55,292 nucleotides of DNA from Bdellovibrionota bacterium (GTDB taxonomy: Bacteria; Bdellovibrionota; Bdellovibrionia; Bdellovibrionales; JAMPXM01). The stretch covers positions 1 through 55,292 of the forward strand of contig CAUJGS010000132.1 in NCBI GenBank assembly GCA_963170185.1. Direction: 5' to 3'. Below, in pieces: positions 30,562 to 47,165 of this stretch; within the stretch, counting starts at the first letter, position 1; every line of letters begins with the position of its first letter. A model generated the notes under the pieces. It searched no databases. It was not told the origin of the DNA and saw only the letters and a list, made by a program, of their open reading frames with translations. The position numbers and the translations under genes were made by a program.

Positions 30562-30714
30562 TTTGCAAATCCTCCGATGATTATGTCTGACGCCACCTAC
30601 AGGGTACGTTGACGGAATACGTCGTCAACTGACACTTCTTCGAACCCCCGACCAATGTCTTGAACACAAACGGTCTACTGCCCTCGTTTTTTTTTAGAGG
30701 GGAGGATGGTCGGT

Positions 30715-31962
30715 ATGGATCGGGGCGCTTTCAGAAATCGAACTCTCTTGGTCGGTCAGTGTTTGATCCTCGTCGGCATACAGGCTCTAGCGCCCGAACA
30801 GTGGCGGTATTTTTCGGCCTTCTGGCCACAAGGCATCGAAGGCTCGCCTCACCCCGTCCTCACAAGTCTCGCGCTGATCCCGGCCATCGTTCTCGTCGCC
30901 GGGCTGTTTTCCGCACCACACTGGTTCTATCTAATCGCCGCACTCGCGATTGGCGGCATCGGCAACCCGATCGTGGTTTTTGCTGCAATTGGGTTTTTAT
31001 CTCTTCTTTTTTTTATGGCTCCGCTGGCTCGCGAGCGCGCACTCCTGACGGCGATATGGATCGGATCTCTATTTGCGGTCCTGATTTGGTCGAACACCGC
31101 AATCTTTCAGAGAAATCCCCCGCCACCGTTGCTCTGGTTCAGCATCATGTTGCACACGACATGGGGGCTCAAAAGTTTGGCGTGGGTCGTTTCCGTTCGA
31201 AGCTACCGCATGAACTTCACGTACAAACAGTTTGCGACCTATTTCTTTCATCCTAGCTTCATGATGTTCACCAACGACCTCTCTGTACTTACACCTGATC
31301 GATTTCTGCGGGCCGATTCGGAAAAACGAGTGTCCACCTGGACAGACAGTCTTGGTCTTCTAGGTGGCGGCTTGGTTTTGCTCGCCCTCTACGCGCTCTG
31401 CCAAAATCTGTACTTCAAACAACTCGACTCCGTCGGCCTTTTAGCTCACCCCATCATTGGCGGCGTCATCTCGATAATGACCGCGATCATTTTCCATTGG
31501 GGCAACGTTTGTGTACAAAGCGCCTTTCTACGCGCCGAGGGGATTCACGTTCCCGTCGATATGAACAAACCATGGGAAGCTCGAACGCCTTCTGACTATT
31601 GGCGACGCATGCATTACTATGTGCGCGAATACATTCTCGATATTCTGGTAAAGCCCCTTATGACTTACGCAATCCGCTCTGGCTTGAAAGTGCACGTCGC
31701 CAAAGCGCTGCTCCTCTTGCTTCTCTTCGCTGGATTCACCTACACACAAATCGGTTACCAACCCTTCCGAGCCAATCGAGAAACCCAAATTGGCTTACTC
31801 ATTACCGCGCTGTTTTTTATGGTCACAGTGCTGCCGGAAATTTTGCCGAATACAATCCGCGGTCACCTCTTTGAGGGAGCGCCATGGAAAACAAGAACAG
31901 TGTTATGGCTTGCGCTTATAGGCGTCTACGCCGCGATCTTCCATCTCCGAGTCGGATTTTAG
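30715..31962 (+). CDS. MBOAT-like polytopic membrane protein (catalytic His region altered)
   Basis: 415 aa from ATG 30715 (GGAGG 9 nt upstream; 30706 is too close to that site). About ten transmembrane helices. SPSDYWRRMHYYVREYI-like sequence (in fact TPSDYWRRMHYYVREYILD) matches the DYWRRWHISxSxWLRDY box of membrane-bound O-acyltransferases. FKQFATYFFHPSFMM-type sequence resembles the family's upstream loop. Where the invariant His (GLWHG) should follow, FAGFTYTQIGY is present, so the usual acyl-transfer centre seems missing. First gene of a four-gene operon with aminomutase genes. A related protein is encoded at 32797. Confidence 0.65.
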   Translation: MDRGAFRNRTLLVGQCLILVGIQALAPEQWRYFSAFWPQGIEGSPHPVLTSLALIPAIVLVAGLFSAPHWFYLIAALAIGGIGNPIVVFAAIGFLSLLFFMAPLARERALLTAIWIGSLFAVLIWSNTAIFQRNPPPPLLWFSIMLHTTWGLKSLAWVVSVRSYRMNFTYKQFATYFFHPSFMMFTNDLSVLTPDRFLRADSEKRVSTWTDSLGLLGGGLVLLALYALCQNLYFKQLDSVGLLAHPIIGGVISIMTAIIFHWGNVCVQSAFLRAEGIHVPVDMNKPWEARTPSDYWRRMHYYVREYILDILVKPLMTYAIRSGLKVHVAKALLLLLLFAGFTYTQIGYQPFRANRETQIGLLITALFFMVTVLPEILPNTIRGHLFEGAPWKTRTVLWLALIGVYAAIFHLRVGF

Positions 31963-32012
31963 AAGAGTTAGGACTATCCTTCAAAAGAAGCTCCGTTTAA
32001 CGTGAGAGACAT

Positions 32013-32786
32013 ATGATTCATCCAAACGTACGAAGAAAGTTTGATCCCGTCGCACGGCTCGAGGAATTCTCCTCTGTGGATGAAGCCTCTTGGATCAAAG
32101 GCGACTGGCAAAAGAGCCAATCGAATGATTCCAACCCACTATGGGATCTTGAAACGCCCTACGCGCGTTCATGGTTGGCGGCGCTCGAGTCGTGCACGAA
32201 GCGACGTAGCGAATATATAAGTTTTCTGGCAAACCAACCCTTGAACGACATCCGTAAGCACAACGAGACCGAGGCCGTGGTCGTTTGTACAACACGCCTG
32301 ATGCAGTCGGCGCCGATGTGTTTGGCGCCCGATCTGGTGAAACCAGATCCAGGAGTCAGCCAAAAGGTTCTTCTCACCAGTTTCAATCACCCCACGGAAT
32401 GCACGCTCGAGGCCTTGGATGTTTGCGCGGCCTTTTCCGAAAAAGGCTTTATTATTTCCAATCGATCAACCCTGCTTAAGGGCATTAACGACAGTGTTGA
32501 TGTCATCAAAGATCTCAACCTCAAACTTCTCATGATGCGAGTGCGACCTTATGTTCTCTTCTCAGAATGTCCTGTTTCCGCGAAATTTGGACTGTCGATA
32601 GCTAGCGAGAAAGGGGTCGAAATTCTCGAAGGACTTCGTGGCTGGACCTCGGGGCTCGCCGTCCCACATCACATCAATCGACGCACAGGGCTTGCTCAGG
32701 TTCCCGATTACATCCGAAGCCACGAAGACGGCACGTACGTGTTTCGAAACTACCGAAACCAGGAGTTCCGCTTCCAAGAGCGGTAG
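32013..32786 (+). CDS. lysine 2,3-aminomutase paralogue lacking radical-SAM and PLP residues
   Basis: 257 aa. Residues about 87-257 align with the C-terminal half of KamA: FNHPTECTLEALDVC against FNHPKECSLEAFEAC, STLLKGINDSVDVIKDLN against TVILKGINDDESTLKELN, and VRPYVLF and EGLRGWTSGLAVP. Residues 18-35 resemble the KamA N-terminus. The 100-120 residues between, including CxxxCxxC, are absent. The substrate Asp of the YHCDLTFG motif is Pro here (SECPVSAKF), and the PGGGK that binds PLP reads NRRTG. It cannot work as an aminomutase and may be a structural or regulatory subunit, for instance binding KamA, an ACP or a membrane partner. Confidence 0.8.
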   Translation: MIHPNVRRKFDPVARLEEFSSVDEASWIKGDWQKSQSNDSNPLWDLETPYARSWLAALESCTKRRSEYISFLANQPLNDIRKHNETEAVVVCTTRLMQSAPMCLAPDLVKPDPGVSQKVLLTSFNHPTECTLEALDVCAAFSEKGFIISNRSTLLKGINDSVDVIKDLNLKLLMMRVRPYVLFSECPVSAKFGLSIASEKGVEILEGLRGWTSGLAVPHHINRRTGLAQVPDYIRSHEDGTYVFRNYRNQEFRFQER

Positions 32787-32796
32787 GAGTTAGGCC

Positions 32797-34056
32797 TTGC
32801 CGCTTTTGTTAATCGCCGGATTGAGCTACCTGGTTGCGGTCTACATCGGCGATCGGTTTCATTACACGGCCTTTTCTTTGGACCATCAGACTGGCTCCAT
32901 CGTCTTTCTTCCATTGGCAGCGTTTTTATTATCCCTGATGCCCAAGGATACCTGGGTTCGAATTGCTTATAGCTGTCTTGCCACCTTCTTTTTTTTCCAA
33001 GATCTGCAATTTGCTCTCTATCTGTTTGCCGTCGCCGCTACCTTTTATGCATTCGCAAACCTCTGGCTTAAGACGGGCCAAGCAAAACAGGGTTCGACAC
33101 TTCCAATTTTCACCGCGCTCGCACTTGCCTACGTTCCGTTTGTTATTTACGTCAGCAAGATTCCGGTTTCAAAAAGTCAGATCGCTCTTTTGATACTCTT
33201 TAAGTCGATCTTCGCCATGCGACTTATCAGCTGGGCCACGGATAGAATCCTTTATCGACAAAACGACGATCACGGCTTCAAAGAATATCTGGAGTACCTT
33301 TATAACCCCGTGTTCATGCTCTTGCCTGGACAGATTCAGTACGTTCAATATTCTTACTTTCATCAATCAAAGACGCCATCACCAGCCACCAGTACTTCTC
33401 GATCGGCGATTGCCACTCGTCTCGGCATTGCCGCCTGGGGACTTCTCGCGATGAGTGTGTTCAGCATTGGAAACGACTATTTTTGGAAACACCTCTTTGA
33501 GTTGCCAGTCGGCAAATCCGGCATCGAACTTGTGGCAATTCATTTTGCGTTCGGATTGTATTGGCTCGTTCTGATCTATTTCCAACAGGCCGGAGGCATG
33601 AGCTTTCAGGTCTCCATCGCCAGAGAACTGGGCTACAACCTGAAATACGATATGCACTTTCCCCTGCTTGCCCGCTCACCGATCGACTATTTGCGTCGCC
33701 ACAGCTCGTACGTTCGAGACTACGTCGTGCACGTCGGCATGCGCCCCATGGGACTCGGTTTGATTCGCAAAAATATTGAACCGCGCTTTGCCTTTCTACT
33801 TACGGCAATTGTCGCCTACACGGTTTTAGTCGGCGTACAGGTTGGCTACCGCGCGGATTTGGAGCGCCCACTCACAACCGGCTTGGCGATGGTCGGGTTT
33901 CTCGCGCTCTTTCTCGTCCTGCCTTTTGGCGGATCTTTGGGAGAAGCCATCCGCGAGAAACGTCTTCGCGACTGGAATATGAAAGACATCATGGCGTGGC
34001 TTCTTACGATTGGCCTTCTCGCCATCTACAAATCAATTCTTGGACTTGTTCGGTAG
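32797..34056 (+). CDS. MBOAT-like polytopic membrane protein (second)
   Basis: 419 aa; TTG start with AGGAG 7 nt upstream, 10 bp after the pseudo-aminomutase. About ten transmembrane helices. The segment YLEYLYNPVFMLLPGQIQY corresponds to the MBOAT loop, and PIDYLRRHSSYVRDYVVHVG to the R-R-x-x-x-W/Y-x-R-D box. As in the 30715 protein, the helix that should contain WHG instead reads AYTVLVGVQVGYR. The two are distant paralogues, and both surround the pseudo-aminomutase gene, so they may form one complex in the inner membrane. Confidence 0.65.
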   Translation: MPLLLIAGLSYLVAVYIGDRFHYTAFSLDHQTGSIVFLPLAAFLLSLMPKDTWVRIAYSCLATFFFFQDLQFALYLFAVAATFYAFANLWLKTGQAKQGSTLPIFTALALAYVPFVIYVSKIPVSKSQIALLILFKSIFAMRLISWATDRILYRQNDDHGFKEYLEYLYNPVFMLLPGQIQYVQYSYFHQSKTPSPATSTSRSAIATRLGIAAWGLLAMSVFSIGNDYFWKHLFELPVGKSGIELVAIHFAFGLYWLVLIYFQQAGGMSFQVSIARELGYNLKYDMHFPLLARSPIDYLRRHSSYVRDYVVHVGMRPMGLGLIRKNIEPRFAFLLTAIVAYTVLVGVQVGYRADLERPLTTGLAMVGFLALFLVLPFGGSLGEAIREKRLRDWNMKDIMAWLLTIGLLAIYKSILGLVR

Positions 34057-34074
34057 TTCAGGCAGACTGCTTTC

Positions 34075-35148
34075 ATGTCTTCAGCTGATCTTTTCACAAA
34101 GACAAAGCCCCACAAGTTCTGGAGAGCGGTGCCCGAAGTCGATTGGGCTTCCTGGAAGTGGCAGCTTCAGAATCGGATAGACAGTGTCGCAAAGTTGCGG
34201 TCCGTCTTGGAGTCTGATCCGCCTCCCAATGAGAGTATCGAAAGCATCATTCAGGAAATTGAAAAGACCGAATCGAAGTTCAACTTCTCGATCACACCTT
34301 ACTATTTTTCGTTGATCGACTTTTCTTCACCGGTCTGTCCGATTCGGCGACAGGCCCTGCCGTCTAGTGAAGAGAACATCGAGCTCAGCTACGAACTTCG
34401 AGACTTTCCAAAAGAAGATCAGATGATGCCGGTGCCGGGACTCACCCACAGATACCCAGACCGCGCGATGCTGTATACGACCCACCACTGTGCAATGTAT
34501 TGCCGATTCTGCACCCGAAAACGAAAAGTTTCGAACCCCTCGACAGCCCTTCAACAGCAGCAGATTCAAAATGCCATCGACCACATCGCCAAAACCCCTC
34601 ATCTGCGGGAGATCGTCTTAAGTGGAGGCGACGTCTTCTCTTTCGGAGATGACGGTCTGGACAAACTGCTTAAACGCACTCGCGCAATCGAACACGTCGA
34701 GATCGTTCGGCTTGGAACACGCAATCTCGTGACTCTTCCTTTTCGTGCCACCGTCGAATTGATGGGAATATTCGAGAACTACCTGCCACTCTACATTCAT
34801 ACTCACTTCAATCATCCAAAAGAGTGTTCCTTGGAGGCCTTCGAGGCTTGTCGTCGGTTGCGCGATGCCGGGTGTGTCGTCAACAACCACACCGTCATCC
34901 TTAAGGGAATCAATGACGACGAAAGTACTTTAAAAGAACTAAATCGTCGGCTGCTACAAATGGGAGCGCAACCCTACTACATGTATCACTGCGACCTGAC
35001 TTTTGGATCTTCGCATTTCCGAACCATGATCGCAGACGACATCGAGCTTGTTCACAAGCTTCATGGCGATACGAAGTGGGATACGGACGCCAATGTTCCA
35101 CACTACATGGTCGACACCCCAGGCGGCGGAAAAATCGAGCTCGTCTAG
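34075..35148 (+). CDS. kamA: lysine 2,3-aminomutase KamA
   Basis: A 357-aa radical-SAM, PLP enzyme that turns L-lysine into L-beta-lysine. C139, C143 and C146 form the CxxxCxxC cluster in THHCAMYCRFCTRKRK. VPGLTHRYPDR and VLSGGD are typical. D307 (YHCDLTFG) and D347 (MVDTPGGGK) match the two Asp that hold the lysine side chain in clostridial LAM, and K353 should bind PLP. The second Asp argues against EpmB. The C-terminal zinc/Cys tail of clostridial LAM is missing. It is fourth gene of the operon after a dead paralogue and two MBOAT-like proteins, so beta-lysine is probably made for that system. Confidence 0.88.
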   Translation: MSSADLFTKTKPHKFWRAVPEVDWASWKWQLQNRIDSVAKLRSVLESDPPPNESIESIIQEIEKTESKFNFSITPYYFSLIDFSSPVCPIRRQALPSSEENIELSYELRDFPKEDQMMPVPGLTHRYPDRAMLYTTHHCAMYCRFCTRKRKVSNPSTALQQQQIQNAIDHIAKTPHLREIVLSGGDVFSFGDDGLDKLLKRTRAIEHVEIVRLGTRNLVTLPFRATVELMGIFENYLPLYIHTHFNHPKECSLEAFEACRRLRDAGCVVNNHTVILKGINDDESTLKELNRRLLQMGAQPYYMYHCDLTFGSSHFRTMIADDIELVHKLHGDTKWDTDANVPHYMVDTPGGGKIELV

Positions 35149-35158
35149 TTGAATCTGC

Positions 35159-36616
35159 CTAAGTGCATTGTTTGGCCGAAGATAAGCGAAGAGACCAAAG
35201 AGCTCGAACGTCGGTTTTGCCACCGTCTGTGTAAGGCCAGCTTTGGACATGAACGTATTCGACGGGACGTTTAAAGTTTGAAAGATTCTCTTGGGCTAAC
35301 TTTCGTAGCTCTAGCTCGATAGACTCTGGGCTCTTCGAAGAATGATAAAACGCGACGAGTTCGGCACCAAGCCGCTCACTTTTTTTCGCGAGTACAACAA
35401 CCTGTTCAACCGATGGATGCAAGGCCAGAGCCCTAGTCGGCTCGTCCAATGGAAACCGAAAGCCATTTACATTGACGATCGCCTGCTCTCGACCATGAAG
35501 AAGAATCTCTCCCTCATTTGAGATCGAACCGAGATCGTCGCTTTTAAACCAACCTGCCTCACGCCGGCAGGAACTCGCAATGCCGTCGCCACGAAACCAC
35601 AAGTACCCGTCTTTTTCCATGACCTCGATGTCGGCGTAAGGCTTGCCCATCAAACCAGTCTTCAGGCTTGGCGACACGGTGGACACGATGTGCGCAATTT
35701 CGGTCATACCGTAACGCATACGAAGATCCAATCCTCGCGCCCGCAATACATCAACCACCCTCTCCGGGAGCGACATCCCACCGTAGTAGGTCTTCATCGC
35801 AACGGCTTCGCGGGTTAGCGGAATCTCGTCGTCTGAATCTAGCAACGCGTGCAACATACTCGGCGACACAATGAAGAGGTCCACCCGATACTTGTTGAAA
35901 ACATCTCGAATTTTCCCAAAGCGGCTGATCTGACTGGCTTCGCGCGAGAAGAGCATCGTCCCGCCCGACAAAACCGTCGGCCAGATCGAGTTACACCCGC
36001 CAGATGTAAAATGAGGTCGAATGTTAAAAATCCGCTTGGCCGCAAGATTCGGATCATTTTTTAGCTCGATCTCGGCCGCTCGAAAAAGATTCCAAGCCGA
36101 ATGCCTGATCAGCTTCGGGTCTCCCGTTGAACCAGACGTCAGCAGGCCCAATTGAAAGTCATCTTGTGTGGTCTTCGTCACTGAAACCAGATCACTCACG
36201 TTCGTGGCATGGATCTCAGAAAACGAAACTGCACGTGCCGATTCCAATAGCCACTCTGCCTTGCTTTCGTCAGCAACGACCAACAACTCTTCGCCAACAA
36301 GACGGCGCAGAGTCGCCGCGACTTCGGGCTGTCGCATACTCGGATTCACAGGAAGGTACATTGCTCCAACACGCCAAGCCGCCATCATTAAGAAGAAAGA
36401 CTTCACCGGATCGTACGTCGCGCCCAACAATACCGACGGCACTTTGTCATCATTTGTTCGAACAATAGCGGTGGCCATTCTTTCAGACTGTGCGCTCAAT
36501 TCTCGCCACGTAATTTCAACTCCGGAGTCACAATCAATAACGGCCGCCTTGTCACACAAAGCGGGACTCACCGCGTTCGCCAGAACCACCTCATAGAGAA
36601 AACATCCTGGCTTCAC
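35159..36616 (-). CDS. AMP-dependent acyl/aminoacyl ligase 1 (ANL superfamily)
   Basis: 485 aa with all core motifs: LLTSGSTGDPK (160-168) for ATP, MRYGMTEIAH (A5), GWFKSDDLG (A7), HGREQAIVNVNGFRF (A8) and the C-terminal GGKTDV catalytic Lys. It should activate a carboxylate as an adenylate and load it on CoA or a carrier protein. The GTG start overlaps the 36613 gene stop (GTGA). The nearest carrier is ACP 37287. Beta-lysine from KamA and fatty acids are both possible substrates. It converges on kamA with 10 bp between the stops. Confidence 0.87.
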   Translation of the reverse strand: MKPGCFLYEVVLANAVSPALCDKAAVIDCDSGVEITWRELSAQSERMATAIVRTNDDKVPSVLLGATYDPVKSFFLMMAAWRVGAMYLPVNPSMRQPEVAATLRRLVGEELLVVADESKAEWLLESARAVSFSEIHATNVSDLVSVTKTTQDDFQLGLLTSGSTGDPKLIRHSAWNLFRAAEIELKNDPNLAAKRIFNIRPHFTSGGCNSIWPTVLSGGTMLFSREASQISRFGKIRDVFNKYRVDLFIVSPSMLHALLDSDDEIPLTREAVAMKTYYGGMSLPERVVDVLRARGLDLRMRYGMTEIAHIVSTVSPSLKTGLMGKPYADIEVMEKDGYLWFRGDGIASSCRREAGWFKSDDLGSISNEGEILLHGREQAIVNVNGFRFPLDEPTRALALHPSVEQVVVLAKKSERLGAELVAFYHSSKSPESIELELRKLAQENLSNFKRPVEYVHVQSWPYTDGGKTDVRALWSLRLSSAKQCT

Positions 36617-37101
36617 GACGCACCCATCTTCCGCGCCAGTTTTTCGATCTTGTCCGCCATGTACGCGCGACCCGAAGGGACTAGTTTTTCACCCATCCAA
36701 CTTTTTATCCAATTCGTTCGGCGAACGACTTCTTGCGGAAAAGCGCTCAGAATCTCCGATTTGGACGATTGAGCAGATTCCCGATTTTCAAGAAGTGTCT
36801 TTAACTGAATCAGTCTGTCTTGAGCTTTTTTAATGTCTCCCGCCAATCTGGCAACTCGGGCAAAATTTAAAAGAAGGATCGGAAGAAGAACGTTCGCCTC
36901 GCCGGGACGAATCCCTTGAGGAAAACCAACCTCTAGACGAGCCAGTGCCGCTGCAAGATGAAACTCGGCCTGCGCGAAGTCGTTTCCGATATAACAAAAG
37001 TACCTCGCTTGCGCATTTCTGGCCCACAGCTCGTGAATCGATATCGGCTCAGAATTTGCGACTTCTTTCTCTAGCTGTGCGGAGCGACTCTTCGCATTCA
37101 T
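36613..37101 (-). CDS. helical protein of unknown function
   Basis: No family recognised; 162 aa from ATG 37101, mainly amphipathic helices (possibly TPR-like: ARYFCYIGNDFAQAEFHLAAAL, LLNFARVARLAGDIKKAQDRL). The same frame is open for a further 40 codons upstream and still looks like protein (TEDYFKNLATFREAVLRGAK), starting perhaps at a CTG near 37220 with a GGGGGG stretch before it. The annotated start may therefore be too short. It is coupled to AMP ligase 1 by a 4-nt overlap, which suggests a joint function. Confidence 0.6.
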   Translation of the reverse strand: MNAKSRSAQLEKEVANSEPISIHELWARNAQARYFCYIGNDFAQAEFHLAAALARLEVGFPQGIRPGEANVLLPILLLNFARVARLAGDIKKAQDRLIQLKTLLENRESAQSSKSEILSAFPQEVVRRTNWIKSWMGEKLVPSGRAYMADKIEKLARKMGAS

Positions 37102-37286
37102 CAGCGCATCATAGTGACGAATCAGTTCTTGTTCGTGAGGGTGAAGGCCTTCCTTAGCTCCGCGAAGGACGGCTTCTCGAAAAGTCGCGAGATTCTTAAA
37201 GTAGTCCTCGGTCTCTTTCAGATGCCCCCCTTTCCCTTACTCTCTCTCGTTGTCGAATTCAGACGGCGGTGTTACTTTGATGACCA

Positions 37287-37532
37287 ATGGCAAACGATCC
37301 TCGATCAAATGACATCATCGCCGACGTATCAAAGTGTATCGCCGACAGCGGCGTTCGATGGCTTGAGGGCCTCGAGATGAGCTCCCTTGATGTTATCACT
37401 CTTGCCGTTAAACTGGAGAAACACTTTGGATTCCAGTTTGAATTAAACGAAATCACAGCTAAAAACTTCTCTTCAAGTGAAACCATCGTGTCTCTGATAT
37501 CGAAGCGAATCGAGACATCAAACCCTCGCTGA
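37287..37532 (+). CDS. acyl carrier protein 1
   Basis: An 81-aa four-helix carrier protein. The phosphopantetheine site lies in GLEMSSLDVITLAVKLEKHF, where the second Ser of MSSLD takes the place of DSLD, so the usual Asp before the Ser is replaced by Ser. FELNEITAKNFSSSETIVSLIS is helix III and the end. It is transcribed opposite AMP ligase 1 and converges on the 38877 gene with a gap of 4 bp. No strong ribosome site is visible. It may serve ligase 1 or the five-gene operon nearby. Confidence 0.8.
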   Translation: MANDPRSNDIIADVSKCIADSGVRWLEGLEMSSLDVITLAVKLEKHFGFQFELNEITAKNFSSSETIVSLISKRIETSNPR

Positions 37533-37536
37533 GTTC

Positions 37537-38877
37537 TCAATCAGACCCCCGGCAATCGTACTCCACCCAGGCTCCTTCTCGTGTCGTTCTCGTTTCCAAA
37601 CCGCCATACGGGATCTCGTAACCCGTGCACAACTGCTTTAATACAAAGTCCATCCCGGATTTCGTCGGCCCGGTGATCGAGCAAAACGATTCCGAGTTCC
37701 ACGAAAACCTTCCATCTGTCGAGGAGTACATTCGCACATTCGCGCTCACCTGGCCGCAGAGAGCCATGTCTTTCAGCCGAATTTGGTAAGGGGCCATCTC
37801 TTTGCCGCGACCCGAGAACATGGTAAATCCGACCGGAGCCGGTGCTCCTAGCCATGCCGCAACCGGTGTCGCCGCTAGCACCAATAATAAAACCGCGGTC
37901 GCTGCTTTAGGCCGCCAGTCCGTAAAAACCCAATCCGATCCTCTTGTTTCACCCACAGCCTGTTTCAACAGCCATCCATGAACCGACAAAAGAGCCACTG
38001 TGACAATCCAAGGGCGAATGAAAAACGCAGATGGCCCAGTTTTCATCCAATCAAACGAAACAACTCCAAGAAGCAAAACCGTTATCCAAAGAAATTCGTT
38101 TGATAACAAACTTCTAAACCTCTCGCCCTTGATGCGAGCCACGACATTCGAGTCGATCAATAAGAGAAATGGGCAAAACGTGAAATACACAAAAAGCACC
38201 GCGGGATGCACAAGTGTGAGAACAAGACAGAAGATCACGGCGAAGTGCGCTGCCAATCTTGGCCACCACAAAGCCCCGAAACCAATTCCAAGCTCAACGG
38301 CAATCGAAGACCATGCCAAGAACCTGCCCGCCTGAGGTCCGAGATTCACGTCGGCATATTGAATGAGAGGCCCGAGAAAGCCGAAACGACTGAAAAACTC
38401 AAACCCGGCTAAATAGTTTGAGTTTATTTTCTGCAAGGCCGCCCCAATAAAGATGATCGCCAAAGACATCGCGGCCGCTTTGCCTATATTCTTTTGATCC
38501 TTAGCAATATCCGACGGGCTTTCGCCCTTGAAGTAAGAAGCCACCGTCGCGAAGAAGGCTAAGTTATAGGCCGCTATCGGAATAAAGGCGCCCATGCCCG
38601 AATACTTCGCGGCCCAAATCAGTAGTACCAAAACCGAGCCAAGGCCCAATACACCGACAGTCGGCCCCCTCACCACCAAGAACGCCAACAACAACATCTT
38701 CAGCGCATCAAAGATTCCGGTCGAGTAGATTTCTGCTAGCCAACCAGAAAGAGGAAACCAAATCACTCCACCTGTTGGTGGCGAACTACCGATGTAAACC
38801 GCGCAGGCGACGGTCATCGCAATTCCGATATGACGAGAAAGATGGTGGCGTTCGTTTATTTCCCTTTCGGAAATCAC
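37537..38877 (-). CDS. HTTM-like polytopic membrane protein with C-terminal soluble domain
   Basis: 446 aa; GTG start directly after the MBOAT stop (TAAGTG). About ten helices; the segments IGAALQKINSNYLAGFEFF and LAWSSIAVELGIGFGALWW resemble the HTTM (vitamin-K-carboxylase-like) helix pattern. The final 90 residues are soluble with three Cys (MALCGQVS, SFCSITG, KQLCTGYE). It is fifth and last gene of the carrier-ligase-decarboxylase-MBOAT operon. Its job could resemble that of DltD or another periplasmic acceptor subunit, but I know no function for it. Confidence 0.65.
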   Translation of the reverse strand: MISEREINERHHLSRHIGIAMTVACAVYIGSSPPTGGVIWFPLSGWLAEIYSTGIFDALKMLLLAFLVVRGPTVGVLGLGSVLVLLIWAAKYSGMGAFIPIAAYNLAFFATVASYFKGESPSDIAKDQKNIGKAAAMSLAIIFIGAALQKINSNYLAGFEFFSRFGFLGPLIQYADVNLGPQAGRFLAWSSIAVELGIGFGALWWPRLAAHFAVIFCLVLTLVHPAVLFVYFTFCPFLLLIDSNVVARIKGERFRSLLSNEFLWITVLLLGVVSFDWMKTGPSAFFIRPWIVTVALLSVHGWLLKQAVGETRGSDWVFTDWRPKAATAVLLLVLAATPVAAWLGAPAPVGFTMFSGRGKEMAPYQIRLKDMALCGQVSANVRMYSSTDGRFSWNSESFCSITGPTKSGMDFVLKQLCTGYEIPYGGLETRTTREGAWVEYDCRGSD

Positions 38878-40194: not shown

Positions 40195-41435
40195 TCTTCG
40201 CCCACGAAATATTCGGCAGCCTCGGGCTGAAGGAGGAAGGTCGTCGGGCTAAATTGCTTACCGTAGGCACCGACATTTTCAACAACGAGCCAGTCGCCGG
40301 CTCGGATTCCTTCCAACGACGCCTCTCGAACAAGAATATCTTGGGTGTAACAAGTCGGGCCCGCGATCGAAACGATTTCAGAACCGCCGCCCCAGCGGCC
40401 TTTGTCGGATTTCAGTAGCGAGAAGGGGAGGTTCGTACGAATGGGTTGCCCCACTCCGCATGCGATCTGGCAGTGGGAATATCCGCCGTCGGCGATCGCG
40501 AATTTGAGCCGTCGGCCTCTTGAATGCACGGTCTTTTCGCGAAGAATTTTTGATACAAAGTAGCCGGACTCTCCAACCAAGTATCGACCCAGCTCCATGG
40601 CAAACCGCATCGGAACTCCCAGTGGCCCCGCCCCTCCGTATCTGGCGGTCAATTGCCGAAGTCCGACAGCGAATCGATCAAAATCAAACGCCTCTGATTT
40701 GGCGGAATATGGAATTCCAATCCCGCCACCAAGAGCGATTCTAAACTTGTCCTTTGCGGGTTTGAATTTTCCAAAGGTTTTTAACTTCGTTTGAAACAGC
40801 AGCGATGCCTCTAGGGCGAATTCGAAATTTTTAACAACGTATTCCGGATGAAGGATCTGAGACTGCACGTGCGAATGAGTTCCTATTAGGTCAAGGTTTC
40901 GCGTTTTTGAAAGGCACATGACAAGGCTTTCGAAACTCGATTCGTCAAAACCAAACTGAGTCGGTTCGTCGACAATGAGACGACCTATATGGCCCACTCG
41001 CTGCATCGGCGAAAGACGCACGACAACCGCGACCCTCTTACCTAAACGACCAGCCACGCCATCAAGCTCTATAAGCTCGGCTTCCGACTCGACAACAATT
41101 CCCCCTATTCCAAGTTCGGCGGCTTTTATCAGTTCGTCCGTTCGCTTGCCCGGGCCGGTGAAGGAAATTTTGTCGACAGAAAACCCCGCCGCCAACGCAC
41201 GATTTAACTCGCCCATCGATGCGACGTCCACCGAGAGGTTTTCCGTCTTCATCGTCTCCAAAATTTTTTTGTGAGAATTGGCTTTCGCGGCATAAAAGAC
41301 TTCGAAATCAGAGCTCAACCGCATCTGAACGAGCTGAATTCGCTCGCGAATTTTTTTTAAATCATAGAGATAAAAGGGGGTCGGCTCCGTCTGTGTGAGA
41401 TTGCGAATGACCATTTCGGTTGCTTCATTCACCAT
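40191..41435 (-). CDS. fold-type III PLP-dependent amino-acid decarboxylase
   Basis: 414 aa, LysA/ornithine-decarboxylase family. FEVFYAAKANSHKK holds the PLP Lys (K51), RIALGGGIGIPY the phosphate-binding Gly run, and VSIAGPTCYTQDI the Cys that completes the partner's active site. The best start, ATG 41435, overlaps the AMP-ligase stop by 11 nt; a longer frame from 41465 is unlikely. It resembles decarboxylases found with AMP ligases and ACPs in exosortase-A-type exopolysaccharide clusters. It would turn lysine, diaminopimelate or a related acid into an amine; the exact substrate is unknown. Confidence 0.85.
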   Translation of the reverse strand: MVNEATEMVIRNLTQTEPTPFYLYDLKKIRERIQLVQMRLSSDFEVFYAAKANSHKKILETMKTENLSVDVASMGELNRALAAGFSVDKISFTGPGKRTDELIKAAELGIGGIVVESEAELIELDGVAGRLGKRVAVVVRLSPMQRVGHIGRLIVDEPTQFGFDESSFESLVMCLSKTRNLDLIGTHSHVQSQILHPEYVVKNFEFALEASLLFQTKLKTFGKFKPAKDKFRIALGGGIGIPYSAKSEAFDFDRFAVGLRQLTARYGGAGPLGVPMRFAMELGRYLVGESGYFVSKILREKTVHSRGRRLKFAIADGGYSHCQIACGVGQPIRTNLPFSLLKSDKGRWGGGSEIVSIAGPTCYTQDILVREASLEGIRAGDWLVVENVGAYGKQFSPTTFLLQPEAAEYFVGEE

Positions 41436-42933
41436 CTGCGCTCTCCCACTTTTCCCGCAAAACATTGCGATCTACTTTACGACTGGCTGTCTCCGGCAGG
41501 GACGCTTCAAAAAAAATCCTATCAGGCACTTTTGAGGGCGAGAGAACACGCTTGCAGTATTCCAAGACTTCGTTTTCGCTCGACTCGCTACCCGCTACAT
41601 TTTGTTCTGCTATAACCAAAAACGCGGCCAAAGCATTTTGTCTACTGTCCTCAACCTTGCGATGAATCACACACACCTGAAGCACGCCCGGAAATCCGCG
41701 CAATGCTTCTTCCACTTCGGAAAGGTGCATTCGAATCTCCCAACGTTTTATCAAGTCGTCCCGTCGGCCAAGATACGTGAATTGACCCGCGTCATCACAC
41801 CGAAAATAGTCGCCCGTGCGAACCTCTCGCCATTTAAGAGGAGACGGAAAGTAGCCGAGCATTCCCCCGACTCCCTCATGCGAAAGCTCACCCTCTTGGC
41901 CGATGCCAACCTCAAGGCCTGAATCGTCTAATAGTTTTAGGCGAACATCTAAAATGGGTCGGCCATGCGTTGCCCTTAGCTCGGACCCGGGCGGATCTTT
42001 CGCCATCAAAGAGCGAAATGTCTCTGTCTGCCCATAGGTGCGAAAGACGGTGGCGTTTTGAAATCGTGCCCGCAAACCGGCGAGATCCTGAAGCGAAAGA
42101 GCGCCGCCGGAGACCGCGCAATATCGCACGCGCAAAAAGCGCTCACCAGCGGACACCTTGTTTAGGAAACTCAGCCACATCATCGGCGTTCCGGAAACAC
42201 CCGTAATTTTCTCGTTTAGAAGGTTGTTTCGGAACCTATCCGTCGACGGGTGCGCTTGAACCACAAGCCTTGCTCCGCTCAGAATCCAAGAAAGCACTTG
42301 ATTGAAACCGACATCATGAGACGTCGGCAGCACATTGAGAATCGCATCCTCTTTGACAATTTCGAAATCTCGAATCTCCGCGTCGGCTCTCGCGACAAGA
42401 TCTTGTCGATCTATCATCACAAGTTTTGGAGCCATCGTGGATCCCGATGTCATGAGAATCCAACCGCACTCGGACGGGCATCGCTGTACGCTAATCGGCG
42501 TTTTGTACGGCAGCACGACAATATGTCCTAGCAGTGGGTCCGGCTCAAACACATCGAGAACCGTCATCTGACCAAGGTCATAACCAAGATCGCGAAGTAT
42601 CGCCTCAAAGCCCTTGAGATCCACTTCATGAAGTAAAAGATTGTGGCTGGTAAGAGTCGAAACAAGTCGCGGCAGCATCGTCGCCAACTGCTGTCGTTCA
42701 AGATTCAGACCTACACCGTCATTAATGAGGGTCCACCAGATGGCAAGAATCGTGTGACTGTTTCTTTGGCCGGCAATAACAAGCGGCTCCGACCAATCTA
42801 TTGGAATAGTCGAAAGGTCTTGTAGCGCTCTTTCGACATCTTTCCACGCGAAATCAAAATGATCGTCTTTGATCGCGCGACGCTCGGGCGAGTTTGAAAC
42901 CCACTCCTGCAGAGCCCTTCGCCACCTATTCAT
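41425..42933 (-). CDS. AMP-dependent acyl/aminoacyl ligase 2 (ANL superfamily)
   Basis: 502 aa. Motifs: MTSGSTMAPK (161-170), where the canonical Gly of TSGSTG is Met, FRTYGQTETFR (A5), RTGDYFRCDDAG (A7), YLGRRDDLIKRWEIR (A8) and the catalytic Lys in ASRKVDR near the C-terminus. It is encoded after ACP 2 with a 4-nt overlap and before the decarboxylase, so it most likely adenylates the acid that is loaded onto ACP 2, as DltA does for DltC. Confidence 0.86.
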   Translation of the reverse strand: MNRWRRALQEWVSNSPERRAIKDDHFDFAWKDVERALQDLSTIPIDWSEPLVIAGQRNSHTILAIWWTLINDGVGLNLERQQLATMLPRLVSTLTSHNLLLHEVDLKGFEAILRDLGYDLGQMTVLDVFEPDPLLGHIVVLPYKTPISVQRCPSECGWILMTSGSTMAPKLVMIDRQDLVARADAEIRDFEIVKEDAILNVLPTSHDVGFNQVLSWILSGARLVVQAHPSTDRFRNNLLNEKITGVSGTPMMWLSFLNKVSAGERFLRVRYCAVSGGALSLQDLAGLRARFQNATVFRTYGQTETFRSLMAKDPPGSELRATHGRPILDVRLKLLDDSGLEVGIGQEGELSHEGVGGMLGYFPSPLKWREVRTGDYFRCDDAGQFTYLGRRDDLIKRWEIRMHLSEVEEALRGFPGVLQVCVIHRKVEDSRQNALAAFLVIAEQNVAGSESSENEVLEYCKRVLSPSKVPDRIFFEASLPETASRKVDRNVLREKWESADGE

Positions 42934-43178
42934 GTCTTTCTCGACTGCACGAATGCTTCGATGGCGACCAGCGTCCCGAAATAGGTGTCGTTAAGATCTT
43001 GTGGCTCGACAGTGATGCCAAACTTCTTTTCCAAGAAATTTACCAGATTGAAAATTCCTATCGAATCCAAAGCACCCGACTCAACCAATGGAAAATCATC
43101 GGCAAATTCCTTAGGAAGAAGCCCTCGGTAAATCGGATCACTCATGAGGAATGTACGCACTTCTTTACGAATTTCCAT
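42930..43178 (-). CDS. acyl carrier protein 2, DltC-like
   Basis: About 82 aa. ESGALDSIGIFNLVNFLEKKF contains the phosphopantetheine Ser in a standard DSI motif, and PQDLNDTYFGTLVAIEAFV is the C-terminal part. AGGAAGGG precedes the ATG; a GTG one codon earlier is possible. It opens the five-gene operon, and every later gene overlaps or touches the one before it. Only about 30 bp separate it from the divergent GNAT gene. Confidence 0.83.
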   Translation of the reverse strand: MEIRKEVRTFLMSDPIYRGLLPKEFADDFPLVESGALDSIGIFNLVNFLEKKFGITVEPQDLNDTYFGTLVAIEAFVQSRKT

Positions 43179-43209
43179 CACGTCATACCCTTCCTATTGA
43201 GGGTATTGA

Positions 43210-43704
43210 GTGACAGATGCTGTGGCAACACGATTGAATAGAGATATGAGTTCTCTGAATTCACACATTCAGTTCGACTGGGGCAAGTATGATGCGTCGC
43301 TACTACGCGCGTATATGCACGAACTCGCTTCCGCCATCAAGGAGCCCTCACCCGAATCTCGTGTGATCGGCCACACAAGAAGCCTGCTGCTGTCACGAAA
43401 AGATGTCGACACCAGTCAGATGACATCCATTGGTGGCGTAAACATTCAAACGTTCCATGACTATGCGCTGATCGATCTGCTCTGGATCGAACCGGAATTT
43501 CGCAAACAGGGCTACGGAAGAATGTTGGTAGAAAGAGTCGAGAGCTACGCAAAAGACCTAGGCCTGAAGCGCCTTCTGCTTAGTGCCTACGAACACCATA
43601 ATTCGGTCGAGTTCTGGAAAAAGATGGGATGCGAAGAAGTCGGCCGCGTTCGCGACTATCCAGTAGGTGAGCAACTCGTCTACTTGCACAAACGCCTGGT
43701 CTAA
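43210..43704 (+). CDS. GNAT family N-acetyltransferase
   Basis: About 164 aa (152 if the ATG at 43246 is used). The GNAT core is clear: LIDLLWIEPEFRKQGYGRML contains beta-4 and the RxxGxG acetyl-CoA loop, and LLSAYEHHNSVEFWKKMG is the C-terminal helix and Gly. GTG 43210 has GAGGG at 6 nt. It is divergent from ACP 2 and tail to tail with an HDAC-like amidohydrolase, with stops overlapping by 4 bp. An acetylated polyamine or beta-lysine would be a sensible common substrate, as in N-epsilon-acetyl-beta-lysine synthesis, but this is inference. Confidence 0.83.
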   Translation: MTDAVATRLNRDMSSLNSHIQFDWGKYDASLLRAYMHELASAIKEPSPESRVIGHTRSLLLSRKDVDTSQMTSIGGVNIQTFHDYALIDLLWIEPEFRKQGYGRMLVERVESYAKDLGLKRLLLSAYEHHNSVEFWKKMGCEEVGRVRDYPVGEQLVYLHKRLV

Positions 43705-44924
43705 AGTCCGTGTACTTTTCTAGCCGAATCTAAACGCTTTGCGAATTCCCTCTCAAGCTTCGCCATCTCCTGCGCGTCGCCAAGCGGAGCGGGCCCAAGT
43801 GGGTCTTTGATAATCGCTTTCTTGTCCGCAACCAATCGGTTGAGAGTGTTAAGCACTCCAAGAGCTGTCGCCCGTCTTTCATAGCCGCCTTCTAGCACAA
43901 AAACGACTTTCCCTTCGCAGACCCTCTCAGCAACACGTTGCACAGATGCTACCAACGACATTTGTTCGTCGACACTGAGAAGCATACTGCCCTGAGGATC
44001 ACGCCAATGCGTGTCGTAACCCATCGATACCAAAATCTGAGCCGGTCTCGTTTTTTCAACAATCGGTACGACAAATTTTTCTACGGCCTCATGCCAACTG
44101 CGTCCCGTTAATCCAAGCGGCATCGGCAGATTGAAATTGAGTCCGCTGCCGGCACCTTCCCCGGTGCGCTCGATACCGCCGGTGTAAGGCCAGTCATCTT
44201 GGTGTACCGAGACATATGTCACTTCGGGACTCGAGTAGAAAATGTCTTCTGTGCCGTTTCCATGATGCACATCCAGATCTAGAATCAGCACCGGCTTGCG
44301 ATTCTTTGCGACAAGTCGCTTGGCCGCGTAAGCCACGCTGTTGGTAAAACAATAACCTCCCGAAAACGCGCGACCTGCGTGATGTCCGGGCGGGCGAATC
44401 AATGCAAAACCGTTTGCAAGTTCACCATTAGCGACTTTGCTCGCTAGCTCAAATGTACCAACCGCAGCCTTATAAGTCGCGTCTCTGGCGTGCGGTCCGC
44501 CATAGGGGGACCACCGAGACTGCGTGAGGTAATCGCGCTGATCAATTTTCTCACTGACTCTTTCGAGATATTTTCGATCATGGACGACACTTAAAGCCTC
44601 TATCCACTCGGCGGCTCCCTGAAAAGGCGAGCTTCGAACGGCGATCTTGCGAAACTTCATGTCCTTGAAGTCGGAAAGCTCGTCGTGCACCTGCATAAGA
44701 CGAGAGGCACTCTCAGGGTGAGAGTGCCAGTCATGAAAAAAGAAGCTCTCGTCCTCAAATAAACCCGTGCGACTCTCATCGGAAAACGTGAACGGGGTTT
44801 CAAATAAGTTGGATTCACGCGGCTTTCCGGCGCGATCGGCGAACCGGCCCGCAAGAAACCCCATCGCTGTAGCGGAGGCAAACCCAGCCAAGAGCTGTCG
44901 TCGTTTGAAAGTTGAACGCTCCAT
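43701..44924 (-). CDS. Tat-exported HDAC / acetylpolyamine amidohydrolase family protein
   Basis: 407 aa. The N-terminus MERSTFKRRQLLAGFASAT has the twin-arginine motif and a hydrophobic stretch, so the protein probably folds with zinc before export. RPPGHHAGRAFSGGYCF, LILDLDVHHGNGTEDIFY and VSMGYDTHW give the catalytic His pair and the Asp-His-Asp zinc site, and VFVLEGGYER the transition-state Tyr. An intact deacetylase outside the cytoplasm is unusual. It pairs with the GNAT gene and may deacetylate a surface-bound or exported acetylated amine. Start at 44924; an in-frame TTG at 44948 is an alternative. Confidence 0.82.
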   Translation of the reverse strand: MERSTFKRRQLLAGFASATAMGFLAGRFADRAGKPRESNLFETPFTFSDESRTGLFEDESFFFHDWHSHPESASRLMQVHDELSDFKDMKFRKIAVRSSPFQGAAEWIEALSVVHDRKYLERVSEKIDQRDYLTQSRWSPYGGPHARDATYKAAVGTFELASKVANGELANGFALIRPPGHHAGRAFSGGYCFTNSVAYAAKRLVAKNRKPVLILDLDVHHGNGTEDIFYSSPEVTYVSVHQDDWPYTGGIERTGEGAGSGLNFNLPMPLGLTGRSWHEAVEKFVVPIVEKTRPAQILVSMGYDTHWRDPQGSMLLSVDEQMSLVASVQRVAERVCEGKVVFVLEGGYERRATALGVLNTLNRLVADKKAIIKDPLGPAPLGDAQEMAKLEREFAKRLDSARKVHGL

Positions 44925-44990
44925 AATTGAATTAACAGTATTCGACAAATCGCTAGTCGGAGAAGGCAGAAGTTAACTAAAATCAAGAAT

Positions 44991-45863
44991 ATGGACCCAC
45001 GCTATCCGATTAAACCATGGCGGCCCTTCTACGACATCGCCCTGTCTTGGTCGGTCATCATTGTAGCCTGTTGGCTCACGCTAGGTGTTTCATGGTGGCT
45101 CTACCCACTAAGCTTCATCTTGATTGCCAACCGCATCCTAGCGCTCTCGCTACTTTGCCACGAGGGTTTGCACCGCACCCTGCACACCAACGGCAAGTGG
45201 AATGATTTTCTCGGGCGCTACCTTTGTGCCTTTCCGACATTCATTTCATTCTCAAAGTATCGCCGCTTGCACCTGCTCCACCACTCTGTGGTCGGCTCCG
45301 ATCATTGGGATCCCGACCGACATCTCTATAGCGGCTACCCCGTGCCGTTTCATAAATTCCTCATCCAACTAATCGGACGCGTGCTGACGCTAAGAACCGC
45401 GTACGACTTTATTCTGTATTACACCGAATACCCCGAAGCTCTTCGGCGAAAACGAATGGCCGACGGCTCGTTGTTTATTCTTAGCCCGCGAAGCGACTTT
45501 GTCCCATTTGCGATATTTCAAGTCGCGATGTTGGCACTCATTTTTATTCTCGGAGTTTGGCCGCAGTTCTTGGCTCTCTACCTTGCGCCTCTAGTTCTGC
45601 TTACGCAGCCCTACGTGATGCTGATGGGAGGAATCCAACATGGCCCCGCAAGAAACCAAAATGAGAACGTCAGTCGCACCGTTCAAGGGTCGAAACTTTA
45701 CATGTGGCTCTTGCTGCCTCTAGATATCAACTTTCATGCGGAACATCATTTAGATCCCAGCGTTCCACACTATTGGCTCAAACAACGAGCCCGCGACCTC
45801 CGCGCCGAGGGTAAGCACCTCTGGACAGAGTCCTATACCGAAACAATGCGCTCTCTATTTTAA
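44991..45863 (+). CDS. membrane fatty-acid desaturase / hydroxylase family protein
   Basis: 290 aa with four or more transmembrane helices and the three histidine boxes of the di-iron membrane desaturases: LLCHEGLHRTLH, RRLHLLHHS and NFHAEHH. It should introduce a double bond or hydroxyl in an acyl chain, on a lipid or acyl carrier. Placed between the HDAC-like and SGNH-like genes in the aminomutase cluster. Its stop overlaps the convergent SGNH gene by 9 bp. Confidence 0.86.
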   Translation: MDPRYPIKPWRPFYDIALSWSVIIVACWLTLGVSWWLYPLSFILIANRILALSLLCHEGLHRTLHTNGKWNDFLGRYLCAFPTFISFSKYRRLHLLHHSVVGSDHWDPDRHLYSGYPVPFHKFLIQLIGRVLTLRTAYDFILYYTEYPEALRRKRMADGSLFILSPRSDFVPFAIFQVAMLALIFILGVWPQFLALYLAPLVLLTQPYVMLMGGIQHGPARNQNENVSRTVQGSKLYMWLLLPLDINFHAEHHLDPSVPHYWLKQRARDLRAEGKHLWTESYTETMRSLF

Positions 45864-47165
45864 AAAAATACGAGAGAGCTCTTTCCCGACGACTTCCGCA
45901 CCTGATTTTTCAAGATGATCGCAGTCTGGCTGAAAAGCGGAAAGTAACCCCTCCGGCGGTAGGTCACGCAGTAGCCATTCCCTACTATCGTAGATCTCGA
46001 TATCACCGTCGAATTTTGATAAAGCACTCCGAAGTGGACGAGAGTGATGGCTCGGGTATTCCACGACAACCACTCTCACACCGGCGTTCAATAGAAGACC
46101 GACGAGCTTTTCAAGATTCGCCAGCGTCGAAGGAAGTAACACTTCAGACTGTTCCGGACCCATCGTTTCAAACTCTTGAGCAAACGCCGCCGTGTCGTCG
46201 GCGATATGAGCTATACGAAGCCTCGCGATGAAAGCCAGGCGCCGATCTTCCATAGAACGCACCGATGACTCCCACCCACTATCGTCCGGCGCGGCTCTCT
46301 CACCTTTGGCCTTGGAGCGATCGGACTGCAAGTAGCCGATATGAACATCGACCAATGCCCTCTCCAAGGAAACGGATTTGAGTTTTTCAAGAAATTGAAT
46401 TCCCTCATCAAGACGCCAGTGCAAGTAGTAAAGGTGCACCAGTGCGCGAATCGCACGAACATAGTTGGGATGTTTAAGAAGTTGTTTTTCGAACTCCGGA
46501 ATAGCTTCGGGTGATTGTTCCCTATAAAGCGACCACGCCAGCGTAAAATCTTTTTTTTGCGCACGAGCCTCGCGGTCGGGGCGCAAACTCAGGTACCGTT
46601 TCTGTGCCTCCGCAGCAAGAACCATAAAAGCTTTCGTGATTTCAAGTCTTCCCGCCGGCGAATGAACGAGACGGTCAAAAGTTTTGTCTACCCACCCACG
46701 AACCCAATCATTTTTCCCAACCATAAGAAAAGCGGTTCCCACCGAACGCTTGCTTAATAACTCACGCATGCGCTCTAGCGCTTCACCGGAAGTCAATCCG
46801 CCAAGGGTAACCTCACCCACTTCCACCGCAGGACGACTCGCTTTGGCGTAAGATAAAAATCGACCCGCCGCCGTGTTAGGATCCTCGATGGTTCCCAAAA
46901 TTGAATCGCCAATGAGAATCGCATCGAAACGATCACTGCCTTCCGCAACTTTTTGATTTCTCGAAACCGATTTGAACCAAGCGGCCGTGCGCAAACCAAG
47001 CTCAACGGTGACTAAAACCGTCGCCAACGCTAGCGCATGTAAAATGACTGTCTTCAAGACGTGCTTCACGGTCCACAAGTCTATGGGACAAGTGCGCCAC
47101 TCCTCAAATGGAAATACACAAAATACACGAAACCGCCTCCGTCGCAGGTCGAGAATTTCCGGCAA
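45855..47165 (-). CDS. membrane-anchored SGNH-like hydrolase with helical insertion
   Basis: Up to 436 aa; the first 30 codons look non-coding and a GTG at 47069 may be the real start. One N-terminal helix (LHALALATVLVTVELGLRT) anchors a periplasmic domain with SGNH blocks: AILIGDSILGT (Ser), MVGKNDW (Asn) and DCDHLEKSGAE (Asp/His). Between the blocks lies an insertion of about 150 residues of TPR-like helices. DltD, AlgJ and PatB-type proteins that work with MBOATs have the same anchored SGNH plan, so it is a candidate partner of MBOAT 38878. Confidence 0.75.
   Translation of the reverse strand: MPEILDLRRRRFRVFCVFPFEEWRTCPIDLWTVKHVLKTVILHALALATVLVTVELGLRTAAWFKSVSRNQKVAEGSDRFDAILIGDSILGTIEDPNTAAGRFLSYAKASRPAVEVGEVTLGGLTSGEALERMRELLSKRSVGTAFLMVGKNDWVRGWVDKTFDRLVHSPAGRLEITKAFMVLAAEAQKRYLSLRPDREARAQKKDFTLAWSLYREQSPEAIPEFEKQLLKHPNYVRAIRALVHLYYLHWRLDEGIQFLEKLKSVSLERALVDVHIGYLQSDRSKAKGERAAPDDSGWESSVRSMEDRRLAFIARLRIAHIADDTAAFAQEFETMGPEQSEVLLPSTLANLEKLVGLLLNAGVRVVVVEYPSHHSRPLRSALSKFDGDIEIYDSREWLLRDLPPEGLLSAFQPDCDHLEKSGAEVVGKELSRIFLK

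Follow-up and report, generated by a model that had tools for sequence, protein, structure and literature searches.

What is made, and where is it delivered, by sixteen closely packed genes in which a lysine 2,3-aminomutase stands beside two adenylate-forming ligases, two carrier proteins and three MBOAT-type membrane proteins, two of which lack the catalytic histidine? The question is raised by contig CAUJGS010000132.1 (C132) of a Bdellovibrionota bacterium, analyzed here in its entirety (55,292 bp, hereafter the window) and belonging to a 3.54-Mb draft genome, G000. These 16 genes are one conserved, apparently undescribed unit. Judged by its proteins, the unit looks like a cluster building unusual amino acids on carriers and exporting them as decoration for the cell surface or for an exported molecule, and the best reading, by sequence and analogy, is an MBOAT–SGNH transfer of the Dlt/PatAB kind supplied by a carrier pathway of the vicenistatin/butirosin kind. 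Taken as a whole, this two-module transmembrane acylation system is the account that we tentatively prefer, with somewhat less than even confidence.

Conservation and modular structure of the cluster

The genes span 30706–47165, with 98% of the sequence coding, and neighbors often overlap (several by 4 bp) or lie 0–50 bp apart. MBL1, pKamA, MBL2 and KamA follow one another on the plus strand; the minus strand carries TPR162–ANL1 and the coupled run ACP2–ANL2–DC3–MBOAT–HTTM, while ACP1, GNAT, HDAC, DES and SGNH are interspersed with alternating strands. The features are as follows (AF2, AlphaFold2; LAM, lysine 2,3-aminomutase; PLP, pyridoxal 5'-phosphate).

30706..31962, plus: MBL1, membrane protein of the MBOAT fold lacking the catalytic His and the Tyr shuttle, module A (AF2 model, VIA match to DltB)
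32013..32786, plus: pKamA, lysine 2,3-aminomutase pseudoenzyme, module A (partial alignment with LAM 2a5h)
32797..34056, plus: MBL2, second His-less MBOAT-like membrane protein, module A (homology to MBL1)
34075..35148, plus: KamA, probable active lysine 2,3-aminomutase, predicted beta-lysine supply, module A (LAM 2a5h, 363.6 bits)
35159..36616, minus: ANL1, adenylate-forming ligase, module A (Pfam AMP-binding, 113.6 bits)
36613..37101, minus: TPR162, TPR-like partner of ANL1, module A (4-bp overlap with ANL1)
37287..37532, plus: ACP1, carrier protein, candidate phosphopantetheine Ser33, module A (PP-binding, 21.5 bits)
37537..38877, minus: HTTM-like membrane protein whose C-terminal domain is predicted to be soluble, module B (AF2 model, VIA)
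38878..40194, minus: MBOAT, intact DltB/PatA-type acyltransferase with the C-terminal shuttle motif FVYMRY, module B (Pfam MBOAT, 80 bits)
40191..41465, minus: DC3, BtrK-type PLP decarboxylase of fold III, module B (BtrK 2j66/7ru7, 328 bits)
41425..42933, minus: ANL2, adenylate-forming ligase with a VinN-like pocket, module B (VinN 3wvn, 186.8 bits)
42930..43181, minus: ACP2, carrier protein with a DSI motif, module B (PP-binding, 24 bits)
43210..43704, plus: GNAT acetyltransferase, module B (Acetyltransf_1, 45.6 bits)
43701..44948, minus: HDAC-fold deacetylase with a Tat-like signal, module B (Hist_deacetyl PF00850, 234.6 bits)
44991..45863, plus: DES, membrane di-iron desaturase/hydroxylase-like enzyme, module B (FA_desaturase, 107.6 bits)
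45855..47165, minus: SGNH-like extracytoplasmic transferase/hydrolase, module B (GDSILG, GKND and DxxH motifs)

For the gene directly downstream (47312–48523), Pfam gives no match, and the genus's four other genomes contain no homologue.

The first-pass annotation of this region had counted about 14 genes; all those it listed are real, their coordinates correct to a few bases, and the total is 16. Its KamA, two ANL ligases, two carrier proteins, fold-III decarboxylase, canonical MBOAT, GNAT, HDAC and desaturase are confirmed by model matches, and its dead aminomutase paralogue, two His-less MBOAT-like proteins, HTTM-like protein and SGNH-like hydrolase by the alignments, fold models and motifs given below. 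Absent from it were the two-module structure, the occurrence of module B alone and the export signals of the HDAC-like protein in five full clusters.

It had also considered the cluster to be one undescribed system, and the gene neighborhoods agree well with this. In a survey of 369 genomes of the phylum, the full set of 16 genes recurs in G082, from the same genus, and in G145 (Bacteriovoracaceae UBA6153), from a different family. Most of the genes are also present in G018 (Bdellovibrio sp. MAG_58; 15 of 16 over contigs C100 and C20, with the break inside MBL2 and HTTM not seen) and in G114 (Bdellovibrionales PDA_C_MAG.6; 10 of 16, its contig being 15 kb long and stopping within the HDAC gene). 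G018, G114 and G145 are metagenome-assembled genomes. This recurrence rules out a chance mixture of genes. The order and strand of the genes are reshuffled among genomes and the set itself is retained, a pattern pointing to selection on the set. Of the 369 genomes, the five cluster carriers alone have strong matches to MBL1 and MBL2, and the cluster-type KamA scores 627–725 bits, compared to at most 450 for every other KamA copy in the phylum. A search of genome contigs with MBL1 yielded at least three loci, all from Bdellovibrionota among the matches listed; plasmids and viral contigs yielded no match. No literature combining beta-lysine, an aminomutase and an MBOAT was found in a search that left most subscription journals outside.

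The set, its conservation and its division into modules are direct observations. Module A comprises seven genes (KamA, pKamA, MBL1, MBL2, ANL1, ACP1 and TPR162) and module B nine (ACP2, ANL2, DC3, DES, GNAT, HDAC-like, MBOAT, SGNH and HTTM). All nine module-B genes are found together in G080, from the same genus (31–73% identity), with none of the module-A genes nearby and no cluster-type KamA genome-wide, and hence module B can work without beta-lysine. The module-A genes as a set were seen only next to module B, with their order varying. Simpler loci in G101, G157 and G145:C1 combine DES-like, ACP2-like and ATP-grasp genes, two of the three with a decarboxylase-family gene. The compact DES-like/carrier/ATP-grasp loci L103, L104 and L107 resemble the butirosin side-chain set, L103 and L104 having a fold-III decarboxylase-family gene.

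The upstream neighbors of the cluster in the window (CysMet, ParA) are also found in G081, where they adjoin a homologue of the gene at 29857–30561 and then another gene (contig C382; L113 1253–4888), on a contig without any cluster gene; thus, one and the same chromosomal site either holds or lacks the cluster, depending on the member of the genus. In G082, the intact cluster occupies the same site as in the window, and a decayed second copy lies a few kb away (G082:C5, ~282–289 kb; L039 2285–9166), with fragments of SGNH, DES, HDAC, DC3, MBOAT and MBL1 and an apparently intact HTTM. Together, the G081 site and the decayed copy fit gain and loss of an island.

Predicted transfer across the membrane

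In the best reading of the membrane proteins, by sequence and by analogy, the MBOAT–SGNH pair would transfer acyl groups across the membrane in a Dlt/PatAB-like manner. The column of the catalytic histidine, H284, is His in all ten module-B-type MBOATs; the second signature histidine, H247, is kept in the window protein and is Asn in G018. The C-terminus matches F-X-Y-X-X-[YF] or comes near to it (FVYMRY, FIYLRY, FIYMRF), G145 having Thr and two others Leu as the last residue. The FXYXXF acyl-shuttle motif has been shown in PatA and DltX, and an MBOAT with this motif together with an SGNH protein is a signature of envelope-polymer acylation (PMC12148441). The SGNH motifs [GS]DS..G and D..H are present in five of six orthologues, the first motif of G080 being unmatched by the scan. 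For HTTM, the AF2 model has the GGCX/HTTM (vitamin K-dependent carboxylase) fold, with gamma-glutamyl carboxylase GGCX in all top 15 rows of the VIA search (Z 14.3; 7.7 in the row after). Scores against D-alanylation models are below the cut-offs: 110.2 bits for the MBOAT with the DltB model TIGR04091 (cut-off 375), and 89.9 and 95.2 bits for ANL1 and ANL2 with the D-alanine–carrier ligase model TIGR01734 (cut-off 559.85).

MBL1 and MBL2 match no Pfam family, and MBL1 matches no NCBIfam model either. The AF2 model of MBL1 (pLDDT 67) has the MBOAT fold (VIA Z 19.6 to DltB, 336 residues aligned, root-mean-square deviation 4.6), the top 25 rows being all MBOATs and the row after that having Z 6.8; the MBOAT fold of MBL2 rests on its homology to MBL1 (hhalign 99.8%). 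MBL1 lacks GxWH and the FXYXXF C-terminus in five orthologues, and MBL2 lacks GxWH and the Tyr shuttle in six sequences, so that the catalytic His and the acyl-accepting Tyr are missing from 11 of 11. MBL2-like proteins are also found in two other places in G018. One is a smaller related locus (G018:C158; L068 9508–17534) with MBL2-like, SGNH, MBOAT and HDAC genes and no KamA or ligase, continuing with a RidA-like (L-PSP) domain protein and then an uncharacterised 463-aa protein. In the other (G018:C25; L067 9660–11033), the N-termini of the adjoining genes' products resemble a nucleotide-sugar dehydrogenase and an epimerase, which suggests a surface-polysaccharide setting.

The same enzymes could instead build a lipid- or peptide-like natural product, a secreted small molecule or aminolipid, with MBOAT and SGNH acylating that product rather than an envelope polymer. 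What favors this is that the cluster occurs patchily, in 5 of 369 genomes, is found at a given site in one member of the genus and missing there in another, and has parts akin to antibiotic pathways (BtrK, VinN), all of it typical of natural-product clusters; but no nonribosomal peptide synthetase (NRPS), polyketide synthase (PKS), thioesterase or dedicated transporter is seen among the 16 genes, and the MBOAT shuttle motif with its SGNH partner points to envelope polymers (PMC12148441). We consider this account possible, if rather doubtful.

Proposed carrier-bound chemistry and mechanism

The supply of acyl groups by module B is best judged from DC3. Its closest solved relative is BtrK (2j66/7ru7, 328 bits), followed by SbnH (245 bits) and DapDC (216 bits), with lysine/ornithine decarboxylases at ~126 bits or less, and a single-sequence search left this ranking unchanged. 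The structure 6knk is SbnH, and BtrK decarboxylates a glutamyl group held by the carrier BtrI (PMC7857480). Translational coupling links the DC3 gene with those of ACP2 and ANL2. Given the proximity to BtrK, DC3 more likely acts on a carrier-bound substrate, giving a beta-alanyl or 4-aminobutyryl thioester, than forms cadaverine, and the product is likelier to be a carrier-bound beta- or gamma-amino acid than a free amine.

ANL2 agrees with this. Its best single-domain PDB match is VinN (3wvn, 186.8 bits), and D207, at the position of GrsA D235, and R307, directly after the A5 motif (GrsA I330), are invariant in all seven module-B ANL2 proteins, the Arg loop being placed by motif alignment to GrsA 330/331 and not from a structure. 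A fragment search for a direct ANL2–VinN alignment gave no match at 1e-8. VinN binds its acidic substrate via D230 and R331 of the beta13–beta14 loop (PMC11253843, PMC7756342), so the VinN-like Asp/Arg pocket would suit an acidic amino acid. In ACP2, D39-S40-I41 is invariant in four orthologues, and the best NCBIfam match is an OlsHI-type ornithine-lipid family (49 bits, cut-off 130); the OlsHI-type pathway itself, which uses a GH3-like enzyme and OlsI (PMC12493201), was rejected, as neither is matched in the cluster.

The nearest NCBIfam models, TIGR03099 for DC3 (256.6 bits) and TIGR03098 for ANL2 (171.5 bits), would make DC3, ANL2 and ACP2 an exosortase-A-type accessory set and the remaining genes exopolysaccharide tailoring. 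We regard this as very improbable, since both scores are far under the cut-offs (478 and 592 bits, respectively) and none of the 16 proteins matched a model for an exosortase or a glycosyltransferase. No more credible is the supply proposed in the first-pass annotation, in which beta-lysine and cadaverine, the latter from free lysine, would feed a Dlt-like pathway: KamA is a good lysine 2,3-aminomutase match and the fold-III family does include lysine/ornithine decarboxylases, but the difference between 328 and ~126 bits, the coupling of DC3 with a carrier and a ligase, and the pocket of ANL2 all point to a carrier-bound acidic amino acid. Cadaverine, or any other free amine, was rejected as a likely supply, DC3 being BtrK-like.

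By analogy, GNAT and the HDAC-like enzyme suggest a candidate pair for amine protection and deprotection. In vicenistatin and butirosin biosynthesis, the carrier-bound amine is capped and afterwards uncapped (PMC11284099), and both combine a ligase, a carrier and on-carrier decarboxylation with this protection (PMC11284099, PMC7857480). GNAT adjoins HDAC or SGNH in each intact cluster. The HDAC-like protein, of the HDAC/acetylpolyamine amidohydrolase fold, scores above the PF00850 cut-off, has intact catalytic motifs (RPPGHHA, DxDxHHGNG, LEGGY), and in five full clusters starts with a Tat-like, lipoprotein or membrane-anchor signal. DES has three invariant His boxes; its best NCBIfam match, the amino-acid hydroxylase model GntB (NF041365, 80 bits, cut-off 380), is a lead only, while its repeated linkage with carrier-protein genes suggests that it acts on carrier-bound material.

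In module A, KamA matches the AblA model (354 bits) and LAM 2a5h (363.6 bits). C139, C143 and C146 (CxxxCxxC), D307 and D347 (equivalents of D293 and D330) and K353 (equivalent of the PLP-binding Lys337) are invariant in four sequences. LAM D293 and D330 bind the lysine side chain, and retention of these residues and of the iron–sulfur motif makes beta-lysine the expected product, as proposed in the first-pass annotation. The cluster KamA ends without the C-terminal 75 residues of LAM. pKamA aligns with LAM residues 199–359 only and, in four orthologues, lacks the N-terminal iron–sulfur region with CxxxCxxC, the PLP lysine and the D293/D330 equivalents; it retains a highly conserved LRGWTSGLAVP...RNY segment that is lost from KamA, and one idea, drawn from these sequences, is that the two subunits may complement each other. 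ANL1 and TPR162 are fused in G018 as one protein (696 aa), and the S-[LI] of ACP1 is conserved in five orthologues.

That KamA and GNAT make the osmolyte N-epsilon-acetyl-beta-lysine, as a known KamA/GNAT pair does, beside an independent module-B pathway is very improbable: module B does occur alone, but GNAT belongs to it and occurs without KamA, no AblB GNAT model matched, the osmolyte needs neither ANL1 nor ACP1, and the module-A genes as a set keep to the vicinity of module B even in shuffled orders.

Returning to the two-module acylation system, we infer from the residues and folds described above what its substrates and acceptor are, in which order the steps run, and what parts protection and the pseudoenzymes play. 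ANL2 would activate an acidic amino acid, Asp or Glu, at its side-chain carboxylate and load it onto ACP2, where DC3 would decarboxylate it to a beta-alanyl or 4-aminobutyryl thioester; DES may oxidise the acyl chain (hydroxylation or desaturation), and GNAT would acetylate the distal amine, blocking self-cyclisation. The MBOAT would then take up the acyl group on the Tyr of the FXYXX[YF] motif at its own C-terminus; from there the SGNH protein would pass it to an acceptor outside the cytoplasm, and the HDAC-like enzyme, once exported, would strip the acetyl group, exposing a positive charge. In the module-A branch, KamA would make beta-lysine, ANL1 (with TPR162) would activate it for ACP1, and MBL1, MBL2 and pKamA may act as a membrane docking or channel complex.

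Several observations weigh against this scheme. ANL1 has Ser at the GrsA D235 position and His at 330 in five orthologues, whereas VinN-type beta-amino-acid ligases keep that pocket Asp (PMC11253843). With Ser in place of the amine-binding Asp, the ANL1 substrate is uncertain; by its pocket, beta-lysine fits no better than an acid that is acylated or has no amine, and ANL1 as a clear beta-lysine ligase by pocket code is unsupported. The PLP-lysine loop of KamA is one Gly shorter than that of LAM (DTPGGGK and DAPGGGGK, respectively), and the SGNH block-III Asn (GKND in the window protein) is Ser in most orthologues. The HDAC-like protein of the module-B-only locus in G080 has no visible export signal, and a related locus, G081:C471, has MBOAT, ANL2, ACP2, GNAT, DES and HDAC without DC3. 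Finally, the MBL1 and HTTM models were built on five-sequence alignments (pLDDT 66–67).

A bolder version, which we consider unlikely, is a new transmembrane conjugation machine in which dead paralogues serve as membrane channel or adaptor, pKamA as partner of the active aminomutase and MBL1 and MBL2 as partners of the active MBOAT, and beta-lysine together with the carrier-made beta- or gamma-amino acid would be N-protected in the cytoplasm, exported, and deprotected outside by the HDAC-fold enzyme.

If the two-module system is correct, it joins carrier-protein amino-acid tailoring with protecting groups, as in antibiotic pathways, and MBOAT–SGNH decoration (Dlt, PatAB), usually separate, and gives Bdellovibrionota, known for predators of bacteria, a new means of placing positive charge on the surface or an exported molecule. 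It also offers a candidate role for a secreted enzyme of the histone-deacetylase fold, and the strict co-occurrence of three conserved pseudoenzymes, including two dead MBOATs, makes a non-catalytic role testable.

Comparison with known systems

The Dlt-type logic proposed in the first-pass annotation is partly right: the MBOAT His, the FXYXX[YF] motif and the adjacent SGNH gene support it. Shared with DltABCD(X), which D-alanylates teichoic acids, are a ligase, a carrier, an MBOAT with its His, an SGNH protein and the DltX-type FXYXXF shuttle (PMC12148441). In contrast to Dlt, the shuttle motif here is on the MBOAT itself, the DltA, DltB and DltC models are all under cut-off, a decarboxylase, an oxidase, GNAT and a deacetylase are added, nothing points to D-Ala, and the hosts are not Gram-positive. 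PatA/PatB and the MBOAT–SGNH acetylation of alginate and cellulose share the MBOAT with a C-terminal Tyr shuttle and an SGNH partner; however, those systems are described as using acyl-CoA without a carrier protein (PMC12148441), while two ligase/carrier pairs and two additional catalytically dead MBOATs are present here.

The exosortase-A-associated ligase/decarboxylase/ACP set contains the nearest curated families of ANL2 and DC3, yet far under cut-offs, and the 16 genes include no exosortase or glycosyltransferase. The beta-lysine branch of viomycin and capreomycin consists of an aminomutase, a stand-alone adenylation domain and a peptidyl carrier protein, and shares with module A a lysine aminomutase adjoining a ligase and a carrier protein. 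Unlike that branch, the cluster has no condensation domain or NRPS, has MBOAT-like membrane proteins and an aminomutase pseudoenzyme, and its ANL1 is without the usual amine-binding Asp.

In the starter-unit pathways of vicenistatin (VinN/VinL/VinO) and butirosin (BtrI/BtrJ/BtrK/BtrG), an acidic amino acid is loaded by its side chain and decarboxylated on the carrier, with amine protection and then deprotection (PMC11284099, PMC7857480), and we propose the same logic here. The differences are that the cluster has no PKS or aminoglycoside genes, that the candidate protecting group is acetyl, that the candidate deprotecting enzyme has an export signal in five full clusters, and that delivery would be by MBOAT–SGNH. 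What is new, in the best reading of these proteins, would be MBOAT–SGNH acyl transfer supplied by two carrier-protein branches.

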